DNA from: Deltaproteobacteria bacterium
GTDB lineage: Bacteria > Desulfobacterota > Binatia > UBA1149 > JAJCZL01
Assembly: GCA_029262415.1 (NCBI GenBank)
Contig: JAJCZL010000083.1
Coordinates: 1 to 64,000, forward strand
Direction of reading: 5' to 3'
Length of the DNA: 64,000 nucleotides
The notes under the pieces were generated by a model. That model had not been told where the DNA came from. It was given only the letters and a program-made list of their open reading frames with translations, and did not search any database. The stretch's first letter is position 1; each line of letters starts with the position of its first letter. Shown here piece after piece: positions 10,179-44,414 of this stretch. The position numbers and the translations under genes were made by a program.

Positions 10179-12554
10179 GTGGACGTATCTGAACAGGCGA
10201 TTTCTGAGCTTGCCCCCTACCTGAATGCCGAGGAGAGGGAGGAACTCACCCATCTCCTGAACGGCGGCGATCGTCCGAAGGATCTTGATACGGATGCCCA
10301 CAAGGAGATCTGGGTTCCGAAGACCGACAAGGAACTTCAGACCTGGATGTGGGAGTTCCTTGGGGTCTACGTCGGGGACAAGCAGGTCTGTGACAACCAC
10401 TGCTCGCCGCTGGAAGCAGTAGCCGAAGCGTACTTCGCGAAGGTCCCTAGAGCCGTATGGTATGGATCTCGCGGGCTTTCGGGGAAGACCATTCTCCTTG
10501 CCGCGCTTTCCGTCACTGAGGCCATTACGCTGGGATGCGGAGTGGTGCTTCTTGGTGGATCCAGGGACCAGTCGCAGCGCGTGCACGCCTACATGTCGGG
10601 TGACGACCCTGCGATGCCTGGTTGCTTCTTCGGGCACCCTAATGCTCCAAAGCACCTGCTGGCCTCTGATCCTTCGCGGTCGGAGACTCGATTGACCAAC
10701 CGAGGGTTCATCAAGGCGGTGCCGGCGAGCATGAAGGTCATTCGCGGCCTGCATCCCCAGCGGATGCGCGGTGATGAGATCGACGAGATGGATGCGGAGG
10801 TCTGGGAGGCAAGTCAGGGCTGTCCGATGGAGAGCGCCGGGGTCAAAGAGCAGACGGTGGGTTGCTCGACCTGGCAGCATCCCAATGGCGTGATGACGCA
10901 CGAGATGAAGGACGCCGAGGAGCGCGGGCGACCCGTGCGGACTTGGTGCACCGTAGGGAGCACGATGGTCCTTACTGATTGTGGGGAAAAGCGCATCGAC
11001 TCGATTAATCCGGGCGACATGGTGATGACACGGGATGGGTGGCGACCGGTCCAGCATCGAACCGCGATGGGGATTCGAAAAGTAGTTGAAGTTGAGTTTT
11101 CAAATGGACGATCCGTTAGGGGAACCTTTGATCATAGAGTTGCAACCCCTGATGGTTGGACCGCGTTAGGCGACCTTAGCCTTGGCGCGGAGGTGGAAGG
11201 CTTCCATGTGGATCTTTTGGCAGGTGCGGCAGTGCCTCCGATTATCCGAGGGGCCGATGTAAAGATTGTCGCCGGAATACGGATGCCCTCGTGGACAGTG
11301 AGTCTTGGCCAACTGGCGCTTCGATATTCTGGATCGTCGGGAGTTCTCGGCCAGCGTGACTGGCTCCAGATGGTCAGGGTTTATGCAGGGCGGGTTATAG
11401 CAAAGGTGGTCGATGGTGAGCCCCTCCGGAACTGGGCCTTTCCAGAGCATGTAGGCTATGCGATGAGCGCCGGTTGTCCCGAATTGCTTCCGCCCTCCGC
11501 CGATAATGCCGTATCCTTGGTGGGTCGCCATGGTCCAGCGCCAACATCCATTTTCTTGGATGGCCATGCGGGATCGCATGAAGGCCTTGTCGATAGTAAC
11601 CCTGAAGCGTTCAGCATTTTGGCGTCCGACGCAGGTTCGGCACCAGGTACTCCCTCTCCAGATGACGCTCGAGCAGCTCGCGCACGTTTTCATGTGACCC
11701 GTACTACTACGTGTGCTTCGCCTGAGCAAGTTTACGATATTGGCGTACACGGTCGGCATGAGTTTGTTGCTGAAGGGGTCGTTGTTGAAAATTGTTTTCG
11801 CGAAAGTCTGGCCGCAGGCTGGCTCTCTAGGGAGATGGTTCTTCGCAAGCAGGCCTCGATGTCGAAGCGTGCCTGGGCGGTCGAGGTATGCCTGGCCAAG
11901 CCGTACACGATGGGCAAGCGGGTCTACACCAACTACGACCGGCGCTACAACTGCGGACCTGTCGATTACGACCCGGGCAACGAGATCTACATCGGGGTCG
12001 ACTTCAACGTGAACCCCATGTGCGCGGTCGCTGGCTTCAAGATCGATGACGAGTTGCACATCTTCGATGAGATCAACATTTGGGGCGCGACGACGCAGCA
12101 TCTCGCGCTCGAGATCCTTCACCGCTACACCACCCGGTTCGGCAACCCGACGTGCGATCTACTCAAGTTCGTTCGTCATCCGCACAACATCCATGTCTAT
12201 CCTGATGCTTCGGGGCAGTACGGACGCAGGACCGGTAGCACCGATATAGAAATCTTGGAGAACGAGGGGTTTCAGTGCTGGTACCCTCGAAAGAATCCCA
12301 ATGTAAGCGACCGGATCAACGAGGTGAATGTTCTTCTGTGGAGCGCTGATGGTCGACGTCGATTGAAGATGGACGACCGTCGAGCTCCGAATCTCTGCGA
12401 CCACATGGAGCAAGTGGCGTACAAGAAGGACACATCGATCGTGAACAAGGCGCTGAACATCGAGCATGACACCGACGCTCTCGGGTATCTGATCCACGGG
12501 CTCTTCCCGCTGGTCGATCGGGGGTCGTTTGGGTTCATGCCGTTGAGGATCTGA
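10179..12554 (+). CDS. terminase large subunit interrupted by an intein
   Basis: 791-residue precursor from a GTG start, predicted 509 residues after splicing. The extein has a Walker A motif GSRGLSGKT at 96-104, Walker B GDEIDEMD at 198-205, and nuclease acidic residues D608 (GVDFN), D676 (YPDAS) and D764/D766 (EHDTDA). It packages DNA into the prohead as ATPase motor and end-cutting nuclease. The intein occupies residues 257-538, between TW256 and C539, so splicing would join TW to CFRESLAAGW, a junction typical of this protein family. Only the spliced product should be active. The ribosome site is weak. The portal gene follows with a TGATG overlap. Confidence 0.92.
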   Translation: MDVSEQAISELAPYLNAEEREELTHLLNGGDRPKDLDTDAHKEIWVPKTDKELQTWMWEFLGVYVGDKQVCDNHCSPLEAVAEAYFAKVPRAVWYGSRGLSGKTILLAALSVTEAITLGCGVVLLGGSRDQSQRVHAYMSGDDPAMPGCFFGHPNAPKHLLASDPSRSETRLTNRGFIKAVPASMKVIRGLHPQRMRGDEIDEMDAEVWEASQGCPMESAGVKEQTVGCSTWQHPNGVMTHEMKDAEERGRPVRTWCTVGSTMVLTDCGEKRIDSINPGDMVMTRDGWRPVQHRTAMGIRKVVEVEFSNGRSVRGTFDHRVATPDGWTALGDLSLGAEVEGFHVDLLAGAAVPPIIRGADVKIVAGIRMPSWTVSLGQLALRYSGSSGVLGQRDWLQMVRVYAGRVIAKVVDGEPLRNWAFPEHVGYAMSAGCPELLPPSADNAVSLVGRHGPAPTSIFLDGHAGSHEGLVDSNPEAFSILASDAGSAPGTPSPDDARAARARFHVTRTTTCASPEQVYDIGVHGRHEFVAEGVVVENCFRESLAAGWLSREMVLRKQASMSKRAWAVEVCLAKPYTMGKRVYTNYDRRYNCGPVDYDPGNEIYIGVDFNVNPMCAVAGFKIDDELHIFDEINIWGATTQHLALEILHRYTTRFGNPTCDLLKFVRHPHNIHVYPDASGQYGRRTGSTDIEILENEGFQCWYPRKNPNVSDRINEVNVLLWSADGRRRLKMDDRRAPNLCDHMEQVAYKKDTSIVNKALNIEHDTDALGYLIHGLFPLVDRGSFGFMPLRI
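10947..11792 (+). mobile_element. intein in the terminase large subunit, without sense-strand endonuclease
   Basis: 282 residues. Block A is CTVGSTMVLTDCGEKRID with nucleophile C1; block B holds RGTFDHRVATPDGW with the TxxH pair (T316, H319 of the precursor); block F is VYDIGVHGRHEFVAEG; block G is VVVEN followed by extein Cys. The penultimate residue is Glu, not the usual His. Between blocks B and F lie about 165 residues without LAGLIDADG or HNH motifs in this frame; the opposite strand there encodes an HNH endonuclease. The DNA is less GC-rich than the flanking terminase sequence, supporting later arrival. Confidence 0.88.
11166..11693 (-). CDS. HNH endonuclease encoded antisense inside the intein
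   Basis: 175 residues. Order: Cys4 zinc knuckle (C4, C7, C18, C21); HNH_3-type core with NGCWRW, then HRIAYMLWKGPVPEGL, then IDHLCYNPPCINPDHLEPVT (D95, H96, N105, H108) and N117; then a second zinc site (THCPRGH...HCRTC). Free-standing homing-type HNH enzymes of phages have exactly this layout. The start ATG is antisense to sense codon His504 and the stop TAA is antisense to Leu330, so the whole gene lies within the intein, codon opposite codon. The frame is open further upstream, but conserved features begin only here. No clear ribosome site or promoter is visible. It probably cuts intein-less terminase alleles; this is inferred. Confidence 0.85.
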   Translation of the reverse strand: MKTCASCSSVIWRGSTWCRTCVGRQNAERFRVTIDKAFMRSRMAIQENGCWRWTMATHQGYGIIGGGRKQFGTTGAHRIAYMLWKGPVPEGLTIDHLCYNPPCINPDHLEPVTLAENSRRSRISKRQLAKTHCPRGHPYSGDNLYIGPSDNRRHCRTCQKIHMEAFHLRAKAKVA

Positions 12555-36361: not shown

Positions 36362-37638
36362 TCGCCGCCATTCTCGGCTTCGCTGGCGTGACTGCATTTG
36401 CGGCGGTAGATGATCCGGTGATCCTCTGCGACGCGCTGGGGCAGTGCCGATTCGCACCGGGTGCCGTTGCTCTGGCCGATGGCCAGGTGGTGCGTGCGAA
36501 GACTATCAATGGTGCGCTCTCGCTTGTAGTCGAGCCGACGATCAGGGCCGGCGCGGATGCGTCGAAGCCCGGGACATGCGACGCCGATGCAGGCCTGAAT
36601 GCGTATCTGGCAACGGACACCCAGACACTCTACGTGTGCCCGGTGGACAACACCTGGACAGCGGTGGGGACCAGCGTGCCGGGGTCTGCGACCTTGCCGA
36701 CCGACTGCGTGGTGGGAGAGTTCTACCACGACACCGACAACATTGTAGGTGCTTCACTTTACTACTGCGTGACAGGCGATGGTCCCGGTGGATCCACCGA
36801 CATCTGGCGAAGCGTGGACACGCCGTTTCCCACCAACGAGGTTCCGGCGAGCAAGCTGGAGCTCGCGTTCAATATTCCTTCGGGAGGGTTGTGGAACTTT
36901 GGCAGTGCGCAACTCCGAGTTCCACAGGTGAGCGCAGTCCCGACAGTCGACGGTCAGATCATTGTCGACGGCACGGGGTTAGAGTGGGGCGATGGGTCAG
37001 GGTCTCATACGGCGATGGATCTGGAGTCTGCGCAGACAGCCACAGGGACGAAAACCATAAATGACCTTCGTGTACCAAATACCGATCCTACAACTGATGT
37101 CGGGCGGATCAGCTTCAACGACACGGGGGACTATCTGGAGGTTGGCGCAACCGGCGACTCGGTAAAGATCTACCCGAATCACCGGCAGTTCTTCGTCGCC
37201 AACACTACGATAGCGGGGACTATCACCACCGCGCGTAAGTACGCCGCGCTTGGGCACTCGCAGTTTGGCTTTTGGACCACTGAATTTTCCACCTTTGTAG
37301 CCCCCGCCGCGATGGACTGTGTTGCGATGACGGTTAGCCTCTCGGCGGCACTCACAGCGCAGACGGTTGTCGCGACCCTGCGAACCGGATCCGCTGGTAC
37401 ACTGTCGGACTCGGCGCTTGCCTGCACTATCGACTCAGCGAGCCTGAACGGGGCCAACTGCAACTTCGGTACGGGGTCGGGTGACCCGCTGGATGGAACG
37501 CAGTGTTGTCGGGATACCGGGACGATTAGTGTCGCGCAGTATGATCAGGTGACGATCGCTATTGCATGTACTACCGGGACTTGCCCCACGGCATCCATGC
37601 TCTACGGCGTCGCGGTGGAATGCGAGATTTATCCATGA
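36328..37638 (+). CDS. secreted virion-associated or surface protein
   Basis: 436 residues with a signal peptide (KVHLAVGVIAAILGFAGVTA then FAA). Repeated Cys pairs (VILCDALGQCRF, CTIDSASLNGANCNF, CCRDTG) suggest disulfides and export. It overlaps the fibre gene by 34 bases. A signal peptide is unusual for a fibre-neighbour; the protein may be exported to the host surface. No family recognised. Confidence 0.6.
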   Translation: MARKVHLAVGVIAAILGFAGVTAFAAVDDPVILCDALGQCRFAPGAVALADGQVVRAKTINGALSLVVEPTIRAGADASKPGTCDADAGLNAYLATDTQTLYVCPVDNTWTAVGTSVPGSATLPTDCVVGEFYHDTDNIVGASLYYCVTGDGPGGSTDIWRSVDTPFPTNEVPASKLELAFNIPSGGLWNFGSAQLRVPQVSAVPTVDGQIIVDGTGLEWGDGSGSHTAMDLESAQTATGTKTINDLRVPNTDPTTDVGRISFNDTGDYLEVGATGDSVKIYPNHRQFFVANTTIAGTITTARKYAALGHSQFGFWTTEFSTFVAPAAMDCVAMTVSLSAALTAQTVVATLRTGSAGTLSDSALACTIDSASLNGANCNFGTGSGDPLDGTQCCRDTGTISVAQYDQVTIAIACTTGTCPTASMLYGVAVECEIYP

Positions 37639-40600
37639 GGTCCGTTGTTTGTGTTCTTGCCTTAGCCGTCCTCCCATCTGTCGTGTCGGCGGCTCCCGTT
37701 TATGTCCGCGGATGGGAGACGTACGATGCTGGTCCGGCGACAACGACGGGGACGCTCGACTACGCGACGACCTACAAGCGCAGCGGCAACGCAGGCATGC
37801 AGATCGCCCCTACCAGTGCCAGTGACTATCGGGACGAGTGCTACGACCTCGGGGCAAGCAGCGGGTATCTCTCGCGCTTCTACGCGAAGTTGGCATCTGC
37901 CGACACCGGCTCGACGACCGTAGCCCGATTCGAAGACAGCACGAACGTCGTAGGGTGCTACCTGGCTATCAATTACAGCGCGTCAGGGACCAGCGCCACG
38001 GTCTGGTACGATGGTGGGCTCGATGAGCCGATCGACTTTGGCACAACAGACCTTCCCGACGGCGAGTGGGAAGACCTCACCCTGGTAAACAAGCGCCTCG
38101 ACGCCGACTCGGTATTCTGCGGCCTCTACTCCGGTCAGGGCGTCTTTCGTTTTGGGGCATCCCAGGATGTTCCAATCGGCTTCACTGTGGAGCAACCGCA
38201 ATATCTCTGCTTCGGCACGAAGGCTGGACTGCCTGCCCAGGCTTCAGCAATATGGGTGGACGATCTGGTAGTGGATTCACTTATTGCACCTGGTCCGGGG
38301 CGGATCGAGGTAATGCACCCTGACGGGGATAGGACTCAATCGCCTGACTTCACTAGCGTCGGGTCTACGTGCGGATCTGATCCAAACCCGGAGGGGTGCG
38401 TGTACGACTGGTCCCAGGGGTTACCATTCGACTGGGATGCAATCGGAGGCACTGGCTGCGTCAATCCGTCCAACGACGGCGACTCTGTGCGTCGGCGTAC
38501 TTCCGACGTGGACGCCCGGGACACGTTCACCTTTTCGAACCCCACACTATCGCTGACCGGCGCAGAGTTTCTGAGCGGGGTAGTTCCGGTGGCTGTGGGG
38601 TGCGTCGACTCAGATGGGCAAGGTCCATCCCCCATGGCACTTGTGTATGAGTCTACCCACGTCTGCACCTCCGACTCTCAATGCAATACCGGGTATGCAG
38701 GATACGATTGCGACACTCAGGGGTCTGCCGAAGGCGGCGGCACCTACTATTGCAACTACAAGACTCCATTCACCGACTGGCCCAATGGCGATACCGCAAT
38801 CTGGGATCAGGCGTACTGGGATACCAATCCCGACACAGGGGTCGCTTGGACTACGACAGAGGTGGATGGTTTTCGTGGCGGATACTGGAAGGATAACGTC
38901 GGGGGGAAGGATGGGGATGTGAATGTCGCTGCGATCATGGCGCTCGTCGACATTCGCGAACCTGCGCTACTCCCCGATCATAATCTGATTGACTTTCAAC
39001 CCGTTGGCGCACCCGATGGCGTGATCGTTTCTTGCACGGGAGGCGATTCTATCTCTGCCGGCACCGGCGCGAGCCTTTGCAGCGAGCAGAGCTGTAAGCT
39101 TCCCAGGTTCTGCTCTGGTGGCTCCGCCGATGGCGACGGCTGCTTTGACGACGGGGACTGCCCCGGCGGCAGTTGCGGAGCGGTCGAGTTTTGTTCGGTC
39201 GATGCCGACTGTGCACACCTACAAACCCCAGCGGCGGATATATCAGCGCCAGCATGCTTCGACGGCTTCTGCCAGGTGCAATGTGGGGCTTCCAGCGACT
39301 GTGACCTTTGCGGAGGCGCGTGCCCCGCCTCGAAGCTCTACGTCTCCCGCATTGCATCAAGTGTCGAGACGATCGATACGGTGTGGAATTGCGCATGGAG
39401 CGGCAGCACGACGGAAGACATGATCGAGGATCATGCAAGGTTCGTTGTAGATCCGCTACACGCGAGCAGTACTACCGGCGGCTCTCCGACGCTCTGTTCC
39501 CTTATCAAGGGGGACGCCGGGAGGTGCTCCGTCACCACGGCTACGGCCTGCTCCTCCGATGCCGCCTGCCCCGTAGCTGAAGTGTGCAACGCATACCCCT
39601 GCGACTACGTCACCGCAGTCGGTGGGATCAATAATTCAAGCGGGATGACTCCGACCGACGGGGTCCATGTGTTTTACGATGCGCCGTACCGAGTCAACGC
39701 ACTCGCGTACGGCGAGAAAACGATGCCTCTAGCGGCACCTACCCCGGGAACCTACCAGTGTCCGCGAGTATCGTGTACGACGGATGCGGACTGCACGGGA
39801 GATCCAAGCCTGGGGGTGGGGTCCGTCTGTATGTACGCCTGCGCTGGGCGCACCGACCCGGTTTGGCCCTGCACGGTCGATGCCCACTGCGGTGAGTGTG
39901 CAAATGACGCGGGAAGGCAGTGCGGTGCGGGAGTACTCGGCGTGACGGGCATCGTCTGTGGTCCGGACCCAACTACTGGGCTTCGTGTTCCTTGCGCGGC
40001 TGGGACATGTTCAACCACCGGGACTCAGTACTGCACCTGTCCGCCGCAGTCCGTGGCATGCTCGACGGACTCTGATTGCAAGAGTGAGGATGCATCATAC
40101 CTTGGCGGGTCGTGCGTTGATTCAGTCTGTGCGTACACCGGAGTAAATCGCACCGGAATCATCGAGAAGTACGTCTGCCACGGCGGCACGAGCGACGGCG
40201 ACGCCTGCGACCTCGAAGCCGATTGCCCGGGGGGTGGTACGTGCCGCCTCGACTCAGCACTACTCGGAGCATACGAACGCAGGCGTGCCAAACTCGGGCA
40301 CGGTAGCCGTGATGTGCTCGCGGGGTTGGTTCAGATGCAGACCGAGGCCGAAGCTGCTGGGTCTCGATTCATTCACTTCACTAACATGTCGATTACTCCA
40401 TACAACTCTGCGGTGACGGGTGGGTTCTTCCAGGGTACTCCGGGGACTCGCATCAACGTGCGGGAGATCACCAATAAGCAGCGGCGGCTGCGGTACGTGG
40501 TCGACCTGCTCTACCCCAGCCGCAACCGCGACGACCCTAATTCGATCGCAGCCGCGGATGGGTGGTGGCATGGTGCACTACGCAGGGACCCTTGGCACCC

Positions 40601-41174
40601 CAACGAGTTGGGCAGTGGAGTTCTCGCGAATGCCGCCAAGGGGATGTTCGACAACCTGGTTCCAGTCTGTGACGACGATGAGACGGTACTGTGCGGCTAC
40701 TGCGACGTAGCCTGCGAAGTCTCTACGGAATCGACCGACTGCGCCAGCGGATTCTGCTCGGGCGGCAAGTGCCGGTGCACGGCGGACGCCCAGTGCGGAG
40801 ATGGTACGTGCGAGGACATCGGTGGGGGAGTATTCAAGTGCGTTGTCCCGAATATCGACCAGTGCCCCCCGGGCAATAATACTGAGTCCCGGTGGCTGAG
40901 AAATGAGGCAGGGCTCTGTCCGTCCGGGAACTGCTTGAGCCAGCACTCAGGGGCTCGCTGCGTCATTGATGGGAGGACCAACTGCATCGATGACGCGGAC
41001 TGCCCCGGTGCCGGTAACCGATGCGCTCTTGATGGAGTTCATATCGAGTGCGATCACGACGGGATGTGCCGGACGCCTGGTCCGTTCAACGCTGACGTCT
41101 GTGCGAATGATGATGCGACGCCGATCGCTGGGCAGGGGGTCGGAGCTTGCAGGCAGCCGACCAGGACCCCATAG
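37635..41174 (+). CDS. large secreted SGNH-type hydrolase with Cys-rich repeats
   Basis: 1179 residues. Signal peptide (RSVVCVLALAVLPSVVSA). Residues about 25-230 look like a LamG/jelly-roll domain. SGNH blocks: CTGGDSIS with S472 (block I), GGINN with N666 (block III-like) and DPWHPNELG with D985/H988 (block V). Between and after these are many Cys-rich repeats of form CxxDxDC...C (CTTDADC, CSTDSDC, CSVDADC, CTADAQC). SGNH enzymes deacylate glycans or lipids. ATGA overlap with the upstream gene. Blocks are much farther apart than usual, so activity needs testing. Confidence 0.6.
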   Translation: MRSVVCVLALAVLPSVVSAAPVYVRGWETYDAGPATTTGTLDYATTYKRSGNAGMQIAPTSASDYRDECYDLGASSGYLSRFYAKLASADTGSTTVARFEDSTNVVGCYLAINYSASGTSATVWYDGGLDEPIDFGTTDLPDGEWEDLTLVNKRLDADSVFCGLYSGQGVFRFGASQDVPIGFTVEQPQYLCFGTKAGLPAQASAIWVDDLVVDSLIAPGPGRIEVMHPDGDRTQSPDFTSVGSTCGSDPNPEGCVYDWSQGLPFDWDAIGGTGCVNPSNDGDSVRRRTSDVDARDTFTFSNPTLSLTGAEFLSGVVPVAVGCVDSDGQGPSPMALVYESTHVCTSDSQCNTGYAGYDCDTQGSAEGGGTYYCNYKTPFTDWPNGDTAIWDQAYWDTNPDTGVAWTTTEVDGFRGGYWKDNVGGKDGDVNVAAIMALVDIREPALLPDHNLIDFQPVGAPDGVIVSCTGGDSISAGTGASLCSEQSCKLPRFCSGGSADGDGCFDDGDCPGGSCGAVEFCSVDADCAHLQTPAADISAPACFDGFCQVQCGASSDCDLCGGACPASKLYVSRIASSVETIDTVWNCAWSGSTTEDMIEDHARFVVDPLHASSTTGGSPTLCSLIKGDAGRCSVTTATACSSDAACPVAEVCNAYPCDYVTAVGGINNSSGMTPTDGVHVFYDAPYRVNALAYGEKTMPLAAPTPGTYQCPRVSCTTDADCTGDPSLGVGSVCMYACAGRTDPVWPCTVDAHCGECANDAGRQCGAGVLGVTGIVCGPDPTTGLRVPCAAGTCSTTGTQYCTCPPQSVACSTDSDCKSEDASYLGGSCVDSVCAYTGVNRTGIIEKYVCHGGTSDGDACDLEADCPGGGTCRLDSALLGAYERRRAKLGHGSRDVLAGLVQMQTEAEAAGSRFIHFTNMSITPYNSAVTGGFFQGTPGTRINVREITNKQRRLRYVVDLLYPSRNRDDPNSIAAADGWWHGALRRDPWHPNELGSGVLANAAKGMFDNLVPVCDDDETVLCGYCDVACEVSTESTDCASGFCSGGKCRCTADAQCGDGTCEDIGGGVFKCVVPNIDQCPPGNNTESRWLRNEAGLCPSGNCLSQHSGARCVIDGRTNCIDDADCPGAGNRCALDGVHIECDHDGMCRTPGPFNADVCANDDATPIAGQGVGACRQPTRTP

Positions 41175-41186
41175 GTAGATGTTGAA

Positions 41187-41597
41187 ATGCCCGACCCAAC
41201 CCCAGCAAACGACCCTCTTTCTGACGGCAGCAAGATTGTCATCCATCGATCGTCGCTCACGATATCAATTGCGAGCCTGGTGGGGTTGTTCGGGTTCGTT
41301 CTTTATAGCGGCGGGCAGCTCCAGCAGTTCACTACGGCGGCGGCATCGATAGGCCTGATGGGAAAAAGAATCAGCCTGCTGGAGGAGTCTGCCGTAAGCT
41401 CTGCTCGGGTAGGTGACCGGGTGGCCGCCCTGGAGGCCCTTACCGCGAGGCTACTAGAGCAAGCGAAGGACCACCTCCGGGGGGGCGACTGGCAGCGGGA
41501 AGATCGACGATTGTCTGAACACCTGGAGAACCTATGGGTAGAGGTTCGAGAACTGCGGAGGAGGACGGAAGAATGCACTTTGAATGGTACGAAATAG
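41187..41597 (+). CDS. membrane protein with coiled coil (lysis region)
   Basis: 136 residues. One membrane helix at about 25-43 (LTISIASLVGLFGFVLYSGG) then a charged coiled coil (VGDRVAALEALTARLLEQAK, RRLSEHLENLWVEVRELRRR). Could be a signal-anchor holin, an inner spanin-like protein or a structural anchor. First gene of the lysis cluster. Confidence 0.55.
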   Translation: MPDPTPANDPLSDGSKIVIHRSSLTISIASLVGLFGFVLYSGGQLQQFTTAAASIGLMGKRISLLEESAVSSARVGDRVAALEALTARLLEQAKDHLRGGDWQREDRRLSEHLENLWVEVRELRRRTEECTLNGTK

Positions 41598-41686
41598 GCA
41601 TGGCTATCCTTACTATCCTGGTTGCCGTTTTCGCGTTGGCTACGGGGGTGCCCCTTGCGCTTCCCTGGACAGTCCCATTGCCCTGA
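41573..41686 (+). CDS. 37-aa single-helix membrane peptide
   Basis: Very strong ribosome site (GGAGGAGGACGGAAG) before the ATG. N-terminus MHFEWYEIG, then a hydrophobic helix (AILTILVAVFALATGVPLAL). Overlaps the end of the upstream gene in another frame. Size and place fit a small holin or holin regulator; function not shown. Confidence 0.55.
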   Translation: MHFEWYEIGMAILTILVAVFALATGVPLALPWTVPLP

Positions 41687-41692
41687 GCCACG

Positions 41693-42268
41693 ATGCAACT
41701 CTTGTATGGGCAACCATGGACATCCCTGGCGGGGTGGGCTGGCGCGGCCAGCGCCTTAGCCGATCGCGCGTTATCTTCGTTGCGGCAGGTGATTCTCGTT
41801 GTCGACGATGAAGTCGGATGCCGCCAGTCAATCCGCGAGATCCTGAAGGCATATCCTGAGTTCGAGGTGGTCGATGCCTGCTCTGCCGCCGAGGCGCGGC
41901 AGCAGCTAAAGAAGCATGAACATCGGATCTGCTGTGCATTTGTCGACCTCCGTCTATCCGGCGGCTCAGAGTCCGGGGGCATGGCCCTGACTCGGGAGAT
42001 ACGAAGGAAATACGCTTGGGTCGGAGTTGTGATCTTCTCTGGATATGCGGCTTCCCACGAGAGGGAGTTGCGGGACCTCGGCGTGGTTTCCATCCTGACC
42101 AAGGGGTCGGCGAGCCCGACCGATATTTTGGTAGCAGCGAAGGCCTCGAGGAGCTTCCTGTGGTCCTGGCATCACTTCGAGGCGCACGACAAGCGCCGCA
42201 TCCGGAAGTTGCTGTTGATTGCGCTCTTGAGTATGGCGGTAACGATGCTCTCTAGGTGGATGCGATGA
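41693..42268 (+). CDS. membrane-anchored response regulator receiver protein
   Basis: 191 residues. A REC domain spans about 32-150: acidic pair D38-D39 (LVVDDE), phosphoacceptor D85 (AFVDLRLSG), S116 (IFSGYA) and K137 (LTKG). No DNA-binding or enzyme output domain; instead a basic stretch and a C-terminal membrane helix (172-187, KLLLIALLSMAVTML). It lies between putative membrane lysis genes and is coupled by ATGA to the next. A phosphorylatable switch tied to the membrane is unusual for a phage. The first 30 residues may be an overlong start; an internal GTG is possible. Confidence 0.75.
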   Translation: MQLLYGQPWTSLAGWAGAASALADRALSSLRQVILVVDDEVGCRQSIREILKAYPEFEVVDACSAAEARQQLKKHEHRICCAFVDLRLSGGSESGGMALTREIRRKYAWVGVVIFSGYAASHERELRDLGVVSILTKGSASPTDILVAAKASRSFLWSWHHFEAHDKRRIRKLLLIALLSMAVTMLSRWMR

Positions 42269-42615
42269 GGCAAGGGGATGAAGTAGCGGTAGCAACCGAC
42301 GATCCCGCCGCGCCCGACATTCGGACCATTGCTGGGGTGTCCATGGTCCTCTGGTTGATCGCCCGAGAGTTCGCGCCGCTGATTGGTCTTGGGGGGATTC
42401 AGTTCCTCTTGGGTGCGTGCCTTCTGGTAGCGATCATTGATGCGATTCAGCACAAGCGCGACCTCCTCACCGCGCTTGCCTTCGCCTGGGTACTTCTTCA
42501 GGGGGCAGCGGGGACTGAGGCAAACGTACGATACGTCGGGTTCACTCCACTGGCAGCGCCGGCCAGCGCACAGGAAGAGCCTACACCGAAACCACGCGAT
42601 CCGTTTTGGCCGTAG
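42265..42615 (+). CDS. polytopic membrane protein (holin candidate)
   Basis: 116 residues. Three hydrophobic segments: IAGVSMVLWLIAREF, LGGIQFLLGACLLVAIIDAI and LLTALAFAWVLLQGA, then a periplasm- or cytoplasm-facing Pro-rich tail. Size and helices fit a class I/II holin, next to a GH108 endolysin 1.3 kb on. Starts at the ATGA overlap with the receiver gene. Confidence 0.6.
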   Translation: MRQGDEVAVATDDPAAPDIRTIAGVSMVLWLIAREFAPLIGLGGIQFLLGACLLVAIIDAIQHKRDLLTALAFAWVLLQGAAGTEANVRYVGFTPLAAPASAQEEPTPKPRDPFWP

Positions 42616-42640: not shown

Positions 42641-42955
42641 ATGAACAATGAAGAAATGGCGGTACCTGCGAAGCCTGAACTACCGTGTGAGCCTAGCTCG
42701 ATTCAGGTGGCGCAGGCGGTACTCAACCAGCGGCAGGAGTTCCTGAAGAACCTCGCGGGCATCCGGGTAGCGGTGAAGCTTGCGAAGGCGCTCGACGACA
42801 AGGAGCGACTGGCAAAGCTCGAGGCGGATGCCGCCACGGTGATGGACGGGCTCGAGGCAATCCAGTCGATCATCGAAGAGGAAGATTCCGAGGTACAGCG
42901 TCTGGTGATAGACGCAATTGAGAGAGCCAAGGAGACGGCTCAAGGAGGCAAGTGA
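42641..42955 (+). CDS. coiled-coil hypothetical protein
   Basis: 104 residues, almost entirely helical and charged (VAQAVLNQRQEFLKNLAGIR, LEAIQSIIEEEDSEVQRLVI). No signal or membrane helix. May be a cytoplasmic partner of the lysis proteins. Ribosome site is weak (GGGGGTCGAT). Confidence 0.6.
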   Translation: MNNEEMAVPAKPELPCEPSSIQVAQAVLNQRQEFLKNLAGIRVAVKLAKALDDKERLAKLEADAATVMDGLEAIQSIIEEEDSEVQRLVIDAIERAKETAQGGK

Positions 42956-43593
42956 TGGACCTGCTCAAAACGAAGTCTGCATTGGTGGGGCTTACCGGGA
43001 CGCTGATCGGTCTCGGCTTCTACCTATCTGGGAACCCCGAAGCGCCACCGCTCGAAGAGTTGGTACGTGAGATTGGATCGGTTCTGACTACGCTGCTCGG
43101 AGTCGGACTGGTGACTCTGCGCCATGCCCTACTCAAGGGGGGTGCTGTCGGCGTTATTTCGACACCGAAGCTTGAGCCAGGAGTTTCCATAGTACCCACT
43201 GTGACCAAGGCAGGCATGGTCGCTGGCATGAGCGTGATGCTGCTCTCCGGGTGCGCCCTACTGCAGTCACCGGATGCGGCAGGGGTAAGTAGGCTCGACC
43301 ATGAGAAGGTCGCTTACACGGCTCAGGTGGCTGCGACAGCGGGGTTGCAGGCTCTGACCTCGGCTGGGCGGCTGGGTGAGATCACGCCGGCGGAGGCAAA
43401 GCCTGTAGCTTATCAACTGTATTACGCCGGCACGAAGGCTGGGGAGGCGGTCGAGATTGCAGCGAGGATTGCCGATGAGCCCGAGGCCGAGGAGCAGTTC
43501 TGGGCGGCTCTGCAGGAGAGCCAGAGAGTGTTGGGGTTGGTAGCGCAGAATCCGGCTGTATCGAGCCTCGGCATCTTCCCCACTTCGCAGTAG
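42955..43593 (+). CDS. membrane protein with internal lipobox (spanin-like candidate)
   Basis: 212 residues, starting at ATG in a TGATG overlap. A first membrane helix at 9-25 (LVGLTGTLIGLGFYLSG), a second hydrophobic part at 82-103 that contains MSVMLLSGC, a good lipobox. The segment starting MVAGMSVMLLSGC could be translated separately from an internal ATG after AAGGCAGGC, giving a lipoprotein of about 125 residues. This resembles two-component spanin logic. The C-terminal half is helical and Ala/Glu-rich. Inference only. Confidence 0.5.
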   Translation: MDLLKTKSALVGLTGTLIGLGFYLSGNPEAPPLEELVREIGSVLTTLLGVGLVTLRHALLKGGAVGVISTPKLEPGVSIVPTVTKAGMVAGMSVMLLSGCALLQSPDAAGVSRLDHEKVAYTAQVAATAGLQALTSAGRLGEITPAEAKPVAYQLYYAGTKAGEAVEIAARIADEPEAEEQFWAALQESQRVLGLVAQNPAVSSLGIFPTSQ

Positions 43594-43623: not shown

Positions 43624-43902
43624 ATGGACCCGAAGATTTCAGCAATGGTTTTCTTGGGGCTGCAGATCATGCAGCGAGTGGTGGCTTCACTACTGACCCT
43701 TCGCAGTGCAGAGGGGCGAAGCCTCACCTCTGTCGAGAAGGAGTCGGCCAAGCGCAATCTGGAGTCAGCGAAGAAGGACTTCGACAAGTGGTTCGCGGAG
43801 ATCACTGCTCCCGATGAGCCTAAGGTAGAGACCCCTCTGCCGGGAAAGCCTTCGGCGTTGAGGCCTTCGACTTCGAGCCCACTGGCCAGCAAGGGGGAAT
43901 GA
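43624..43902 (+). CDS. hypothetical protein, endolysin-adjacent
   Basis: 92 residues: hydrophobic helix near the N-terminus (ISAMVFLGLQIMQRVVASLL), a charged helix (ESAKRNLESAKKDFDKWFAE) and a Pro/Ser tail. Ribosome site AGAAAGGAC. It overlaps the endolysin start by four bases (ATGA). Could be a small membrane partner. Confidence 0.55.
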   Translation: MDPKISAMVFLGLQIMQRVVASLLTLRSAEGRSLTSVEKESAKRNLESAKKDFDKWFAEITAPDEPKVETPLPGKPSALRPSTSSPLASKGE

Positions 43903-44414
43903 CCCCCCGATTCCTTCAATCGATCGCCTTCGTGTTGCGGCACGAGGGCGGTCTTTCGGGTGTCGCCGAGGACCGCGGCGGCTTGACGAAGTGGGGCATC
44001 TCAACTCGGTCCCACCCGGTGGCGAGCTCCGATGCGTTCACCTTCGAACATGCGCTTGAGATCTACCGGGCAGGCTACTGGGTGAAGATGGGCCTTGAGC
44101 CTGTGGTGCCCTGGACGGTCGCTGCGAAGACCTTGGACTTCGGGGTGGTGTCTGGTCCCTCGCGGGGCGGCAAATGCCTTCAGAAGGCTTTAAACAGCTT
44201 CGAGGTGGGCATCTCGGTCGACGGCAAGGTCGGAAGTAAGACCCGAGCAGCAATCGAACAGGTGCTAAGAAAAGTTAGCACCGCGGAGTTGATCGATCGG
44301 ATGGTGATGGATCAGGAGAGGTTTTTTCGGGGCATCGTGAACCGAGATCAAACCCAGAGGGTATTCCTTCGAGGGTGGCTCAGGAGAGCCCAAGACATGC
44401 CGCAGGACTTCTAG
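43899..44414 (+). CDS. endolysin, GH108 N-acetylmuramidase
   Basis: 171 residues. RHEGGLSGVAEDRGGLTKWGIS is split over catalytic E16 and the GGLTKWGIS signature of GH108 lysozymes. The second half (FGVVSGPSRGGKCLQKALNS ... VGSKTRAAIEQVLR) is the associated peptidoglycan-binding part. No signal peptide, so it depends on a holin for release. It cuts the glycan backbone at lysis. Last gene of the long rightward operon. Confidence 0.9.
   Translation: MTPRFLQSIAFVLRHEGGLSGVAEDRGGLTKWGISTRSHPVASSDAFTFEHALEIYRAGYWVKMGLEPVVPWTVAAKTLDFGVVSGPSRGGKCLQKALNSFEVGISVDGKVGSKTRAAIEQVLRKVSTAELIDRMVMDQERFFRGIVNRDQTQRVFLRGWLRRAQDMPQDF
44263..44280. promoter_or_regulatory. third copy of the 18-bp palindrome
   Basis: TGCTAAGAAAAGTTAGCA, differing from the first copy at 15261 by one base, lies inside the endolysin coding sequence. 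A position in a gene is unlike a normal promoter operator and more like a roadblock (stoperator) site. Confidence 0.55.

Follow-up and report, generated by a model that had tools for sequence, protein, structure and literature searches.

A stand-alone receiver-domain protein with a probable membrane anchor in a phage lysis region, and the recurrence of such receivers in the lysis regions of other phages

Receiver (REC) domain proteins have been annotated in phages before. The product of gene 48 of phage R8W (gp48) was interpreted as PhoB, serving adaptation to low phosphate (PMC8228385), and gp30 of phage V22 and gp11 of phage A5 were assigned to a 'host recognition module' and classed as CheY-like auxiliary metabolic genes of class II (PMC7289586, PMC10579305). 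Another group, the cRec domains of jumbo phages, is divergent and linked to genes for NAD/ADP-ribose processing, and an action on cyclic phosphates has been proposed for it (PMC7824862), while the 'Receiver domain' of N4 gp63 (PMC12642591) is not a REC but merely the name of a regulatory region. Phage RECs themselves are already known, and what is new here is the recurrence of stand-alone RECs in the lysis region; in a literature search limited to papers outside subscription we found no paper linking a receiver domain or CheY to lysis. The timing of lysis is a major fitness decision for a phage, and beyond lysis inhibition of the T4 type little is understood of how it might respond to host physiology. 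A recurrent lysis-cassette REC offers phosphorylation as a concrete route of input, together with cultured phages that allow it to be tested.

The stretch of DNA analysed here (the window, 64,000 nucleotides) is part of a contig of 68,725 bp (G000:C83) that was binned with a bacterial metagenome-assembled genome. Its two ends carry the same 141 bases, so the contig in all likelihood closes into a circle and represents the whole genome, ~68.6 kb, of a phage. Family searches recognised portal, head morphogenesis, major capsid, tape measure, tail, primase-helicase and endolysin genes. With a major capsid protein 44-47% identical to relatives that include Caulobacter phiCbK, Paenibacillus Heath and Microcystis Mwe-JY26, and a portal protein below 30% identity to its relatives, the phage represents a deeply divergent lineage; searching IMG/VR with exact peptide patterns of its REC, capsid and portal returned no close relatives. 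Scans of the window for tRNA genes and Rfam families gave no matches. Elsewhere in the genome, the terminase large subunit (10179-12554, 791 aa) has an apparent intein, with Hint_2 and Intein_splicing matches below the Pfam cut-offs at residues ~257-538 and the terminase match at 579-781, and a tail-region protein of 1202 aa (37566-41174) is unusually rich in cysteine, with repeated C..D..C stretches and with GDS and WHPN motifs resembling SGNH/GDSL hydrolases, and has no PHROG match.

The REC protein, of 191 aa, is encoded at 41693..42268 on the forward strand, as are all other features of the locus given below, and its frame scores best over this span, with a weak codon score. The receiver domain proper covers residues 34-139 (41792..42109), where PF00072 matched with E=2.7e-12 and 47.3 bits against a curated cut-off of 30.2. 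The original prediction had named D38, D39, D85, S116 and K137 as key residues, and an alignment with 45 other RECs agreed: D39, D85 and K137 were invariant, the D38 position held D or E, and the S116 position was nearly always T or S. The same alignment revealed two oddities of the window REC, namely S92 where proline is near-universal and K-G in place of K-P. As had also been claimed, Pfam, NCBIfam and PHROGs detected no output domain, and specifically Pfam no PhoB/OmpR-type winged-helix DNA-binding domain, which places the protein with the single-domain (CheY-like) response regulators, apart from its extra hydrophobic tail. Assignment to cRec is not indicated, since the match is to classical PF00072 and the neighbouring genes searched have no NAD/ADP-ribose-processing domain. 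The AlphaFold model (mean pLDDT 88.2; mostly 93-98 by block over residues 31-150) has its strands and helices in REC order, giving a (beta-alpha)5 flavodoxin-like fold. Furthermore, the top Foldseek matches of this model in the PDB were receiver-containing entries, and all phmmer matches in the PDB were receiver-containing proteins. By sequence and predicted structure, then, the open reading frame encodes a genuine REC domain with an intact active site.

In the model a single unbroken helix, residues 142-190, comprises both alpha5 and the hydrophobic segment at the C-terminal end (residues 173-187, LLLIALLSMAVTMLS; 42209..42253), which is bounded by KRRIRK and RWMR. A C-terminal membrane helix had been predicted; the hydrophobic helix is there, and its insertion in the membrane is probable only, because the segment has just 15 residues, below the usual 19-residue threshold for a transmembrane (TM) segment, and the best 15-mer of the protein is equalled by ~5% of its shuffles (~1 in 20). 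The segment probably serves as a short anchor in the membrane, the REC lying on the cytoplasmic side.

The genes around the REC form a block that follows the tail genes. It opens with a 136-aa protein (41187..41597) of no Pfam or PHROG family, which has one TM segment (residues ~24-42) and then a charged coiled-coil-like region (TM-CC), and continues with a 37-aa single-TM mini-protein (41573..41686) that has a strong Shine-Dalgarno sequence (GGAGGAGG) and a negative codon score, its coding status being uncertain. After the REC comes a predicted holin-like protein with 2-3 TM segments (42265..42615), without a family match in Pfam or PHROGs, whose start we place at ATG 42265 (the mechanical reading frame begins at GTG 42256). 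Three small proteins follow: a soluble helical one (42641..42955), a membrane protein whose N-terminal segments are hydrophobic and which has a lipobox-like LLSGC in its interior (42952..43593; no significant Pfam or PHROG match), and a 92-aa protein with a hydrophobic N-terminal segment (43624..43902), which overlaps the start of the last gene by ATGA. That gene encodes a GH108/PG_binding_3 endolysin (43899..44414; PF05838 5.2e-14, PF09374 2.1e-14, PHROG endolysin 8.2e-38), and its presence makes the lysis region of the original prediction a real one. The ATG of the REC (41693) has no Shine-Dalgarno sequence and lies 6 nt past the stop of the mini-ORF, so the REC is probably translated by coupling; at its other end the REC stop TGA overlaps ATG 42265 (ATGA), in keeping with the coupling to the holin-like gene that had been noted, and the holin-like gene has a Shine-Dalgarno-like AGGTGG. 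We propose a lysis-cassette module defined as a stand-alone REC near endolysin, holin or spanin genes and adjoining a small membrane coiled-coil gene. The window has this arrangement (TM-CC at 41187, holin-like gene at 42265, lysin 1.6 kb downstream), but as the starting observation its REC position is not independent evidence for a link to lysis.

Evidence from outside the window came from two samples of IMG/VR records, 50 picked by relatives of the capsid and 50 by relatives of the GH108 lysin, each searched with PF00072 over the whole record. The capsid sample yielded a single record with a REC (G546), a stand-alone domain with tail genes on one side and an N-acetylmuramidase gene on the other, encoded on the strand opposite to the lysis genes. 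The lysin sample yielded two above the cut-off (G608 and G620), both beside the lysin, with the REC 421 bp upstream of the GH108 gene or overlapping it. Gene order is holin-like, TM-CC, REC, lipoprotein and lysin in G608, and tail, TM-CC, REC and lysin in G620, and neighbouring genes in both cassettes mostly overlap by ATGA. The chance that all three RECs should lie within 1.6 kb of a lysin is 0.117 x 0.106 x 0.099, ~1e-3, an estimate for records that were not picked for a REC but with a limit of 1.6 kb fixed after the distances had been seen. Most related records have no REC (49/50 in the capsid set and 48/50 in the lysin set, many records being fragments). By frequency, then, the statement that phages rarely carry receiver domains holds (1/50 and 2/50), although such domains had been annotated before. 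The IMG/VR matches L218-L225 were set aside as lysis RECs, their contexts being cell-like or integrase-linked. As a separate observation, the REC of G546 is divergently adjacent to a gene (L095 12641-13309) for a protein with an N-terminal TM segment, a coiled coil and a PAS_3 domain (1.9e-11), and the two could possibly form a split sensor without a kinase.

In cultured phages, RECs were found by sequence similarity to the REC of G620, so that this set counts as one lineage and not as several independent ones. It comprises Alteromonas siphoviruses, podoviruses and myoviruses with a REC in the lysis region (R9Y1-3, R8W, H4/4, PB15, XX1924 and V22), and also PT11-V19, whose REC is degenerate. 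R9Y1-3 have TM-CC, REC and GH108 lysozyme in this order, with a tail fibre gene upstream of TM-CC in R9Y1; the Foturvirus phages R8W and H4/4 have holin, TM-CC protein, REC and a 1-2-TM protein. In PB15 a CC-TM gene precedes the REC, an M15 endolysin and a GTA-type holin; XX1924 has CC-TM, REC, a DUF5675 protein and a close homologue of the PB15 holin; and in V22 gp29, with a hydrophobic N terminus and a coiled coil, is followed by the REC, an Rz-like spanin and a 2-TM protein. Most genes of these cassettes overlap or nearly abut. Nearly all lysis-region RECs follow a small gene for a coiled coil and a membrane segment, and endolysin, holin or spanin genes flank them. In both XX1924 (L237 2438-2836) and V22 (L318 27828-28235) the lysis region has a gene for a DUF5675 protein adjacent or close to the REC, and this protein may itself be a lysis-related enzyme. 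Several other candidates were rejected. The sole INPHARED match of the window REC, MT835933, is a bacterial chromosome on which a REC-AraC regulator lies beside histidine kinase and transporter genes; many other 'phage' REC matches are unannotated contigs resembling bacterial sequence; and Stenotrophomonas phage Bhz63 has something of a different kind, a complete PhoP-like regulator that lies, together with a kinase-like gene, away from the lysis genes. A search of GTDB genomes with an Alteromonas-phage REC returned one phage contig, the remainder being ordinary cellular RECs.

A tree with 116 cellular RECs placed the Alteromonas-phage RECs in one clade (support 0.96) and G608, G546 and the window elsewhere, which suggests at least four separate acquisitions, bearing in mind that single-domain trees are weak and that the window REC, which diverges more than any other, sits on a very long branch. 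The data do not support a recent transfer from the co-binned genome, whose best RECs reach only 32-35% identity. Within lineages, where dS could be computed, REC dN/dS was 0.02-0.16, pointing to purifying selection on the REC in relatives. Moreover, the siphovirus R9Y1 and the Autographiviridae podovirus R8W have RECs of ~46% identity and homologous partners (E~1e-9), so the gene pair travels or persists together.

Because RECs turn up again in the lysis cassettes of other, unrelated phages, we favour a role in lysis or in its timing over the alternatives. We hypothesise that the window protein is a phospho-responsive regulator of the lysis cassette at the inner membrane, acting through membrane partners or its own helix, a proposal that we judge about as likely to be right as wrong. 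Since no HATPase_c kinase domain was found across the whole phage contig, D85 would receive its phosphoryl group from a histidine kinase of the host or from a small phosphodonor such as acetyl phosphate. Phosphorylation would alter the alpha4-beta5-alpha5 face of the REC, and the change could reach the membrane directly in the window protein, where alpha5 and the membrane segment are modelled as one helix, and in the other phages through binding of the REC to the coiled-coil region of its membrane partner. At the membrane the signal might promote or delay the triggering of the adjacent holin-like proteins, either sign being conceivable, and host signalling or energy state would in this way tune the time of lysis. 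More broadly, and more tentatively, phages may on several independent occasions have added a phospho-signalling input to lysis, in which a tethered stand-alone REC reads the two-component or acetyl-phosphate state of the host and sets the lysis time, the window phage having the directly membrane-fused form. A caveat for any role in lysis is that the partner proteins of REC phages are not all homologous and have only a membrane segment and a coiled coil in common; the TM-CC protein of the window has no detectable sequence homology to the partners in other phages and resembles them in architecture only. Membrane segments and coiled coils are common in lysis cassettes anyway, and the interval between tail fibre and lysin is a frequent site of accessory genes.

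The main rival is a phosphate sink or decoy: late in infection the membrane REC would engage the histidine kinases or phosphotransfer proteins of the host and drain or block two-component pathways, such as envelope-stress responses by which lysis would be countered. A REC that stands alone, without a kinase, with its acceptor intact and with a likely location near membrane kinases would suit this role; the co-binned genome, which may not be that of the host, has 28 HATPase matches and 31 other REC matches; and PIT4 of phage LSL4, which binds several host kinases, shows that kinases can be phage targets (PMC10714779). By itself, however, a decoy leaves unexplained the tight, overlapping placement in the lysis cassette beside a membrane coiled-coil gene in several lineages, and we consider it rather unlikely. 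More doubtful is a scaffold that works independently of phosphorylation, a captured REC fold binding lysis membrane proteins with an active site that is a relic or structural. The degenerate REC of PT11-V19 (L233 3998-4450), which has lost the acceptor Asp and the Lys and kept the same upstream TM/coiled-coil partner gene, could be read in this way, as could the strong divergence of the window REC; against this, every other lysis REC retains D, D, D, S/T and K at identities across lineages of mostly 16-30%, and dN/dS is low.

That the gene is a PhoB- or CheY-like auxiliary gene of host metabolism, unrelated to lysis, is how its counterparts in R8W, V22 and A5 were annotated (PMC8228385; PMC7289586, PMC10579305). 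Yet R8W gp48, V22 gp30 and the window REC have no DNA-binding output domain such as that of PhoB, and holins, a spanin and endolysins are among the REC neighbours, so that we hold this explanation to be very improbable; our results rather suggest that marine-phage genes labelled as PhoB-like or CheY-like auxiliary metabolic genes are mis-assigned. Least probable of all, by a shade, would be an adaptor for proteolysis, which would hand a lysis inhibitor or some protein of the host over to a protease such as ClpXP. RssB and CpdR are adaptors that contain a REC, and REC-only adaptors are known from bacteria; RssB did appear in the Foldseek list (rank 38), as expected for any REC, and no feature that we tested specifically favours an adaptor role.

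As a regulator of lysis, the window REC would resemble the T4 antiholins RI and RIII and N4 gp62 and gp63 in setting lysis timing via small membrane proteins; to our knowledge none of these has a REC fold. With the cRec domains of jumbo phages (PMC7824862) it shares a receiver-like domain in a phage, but it fits the classical REC and has lysis genes as neighbours. Closer are V22 gp30, A5 gp11, R8W gp48 and H4/4 gp44, likewise stand-alone RECs between tail and lysis or packaging genes and preceded, as in the window, by a gene for a small membrane/coiled-coil protein (A5 from PMC10579305); they differ in having no membrane helix of their own, in their ~20% identity to the window REC and in having been described as auxiliary metabolic genes. 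With the single-domain regulators CheY and Spo0F, finally, the window protein has in common one REC with a full active site, no output domain and a presumed action by phospho-dependent protein binding, whereas it is borne by a phage without a cognate kinase, is placed in a lysis cassette and has its alpha5 extended into a hydrophobic helix.
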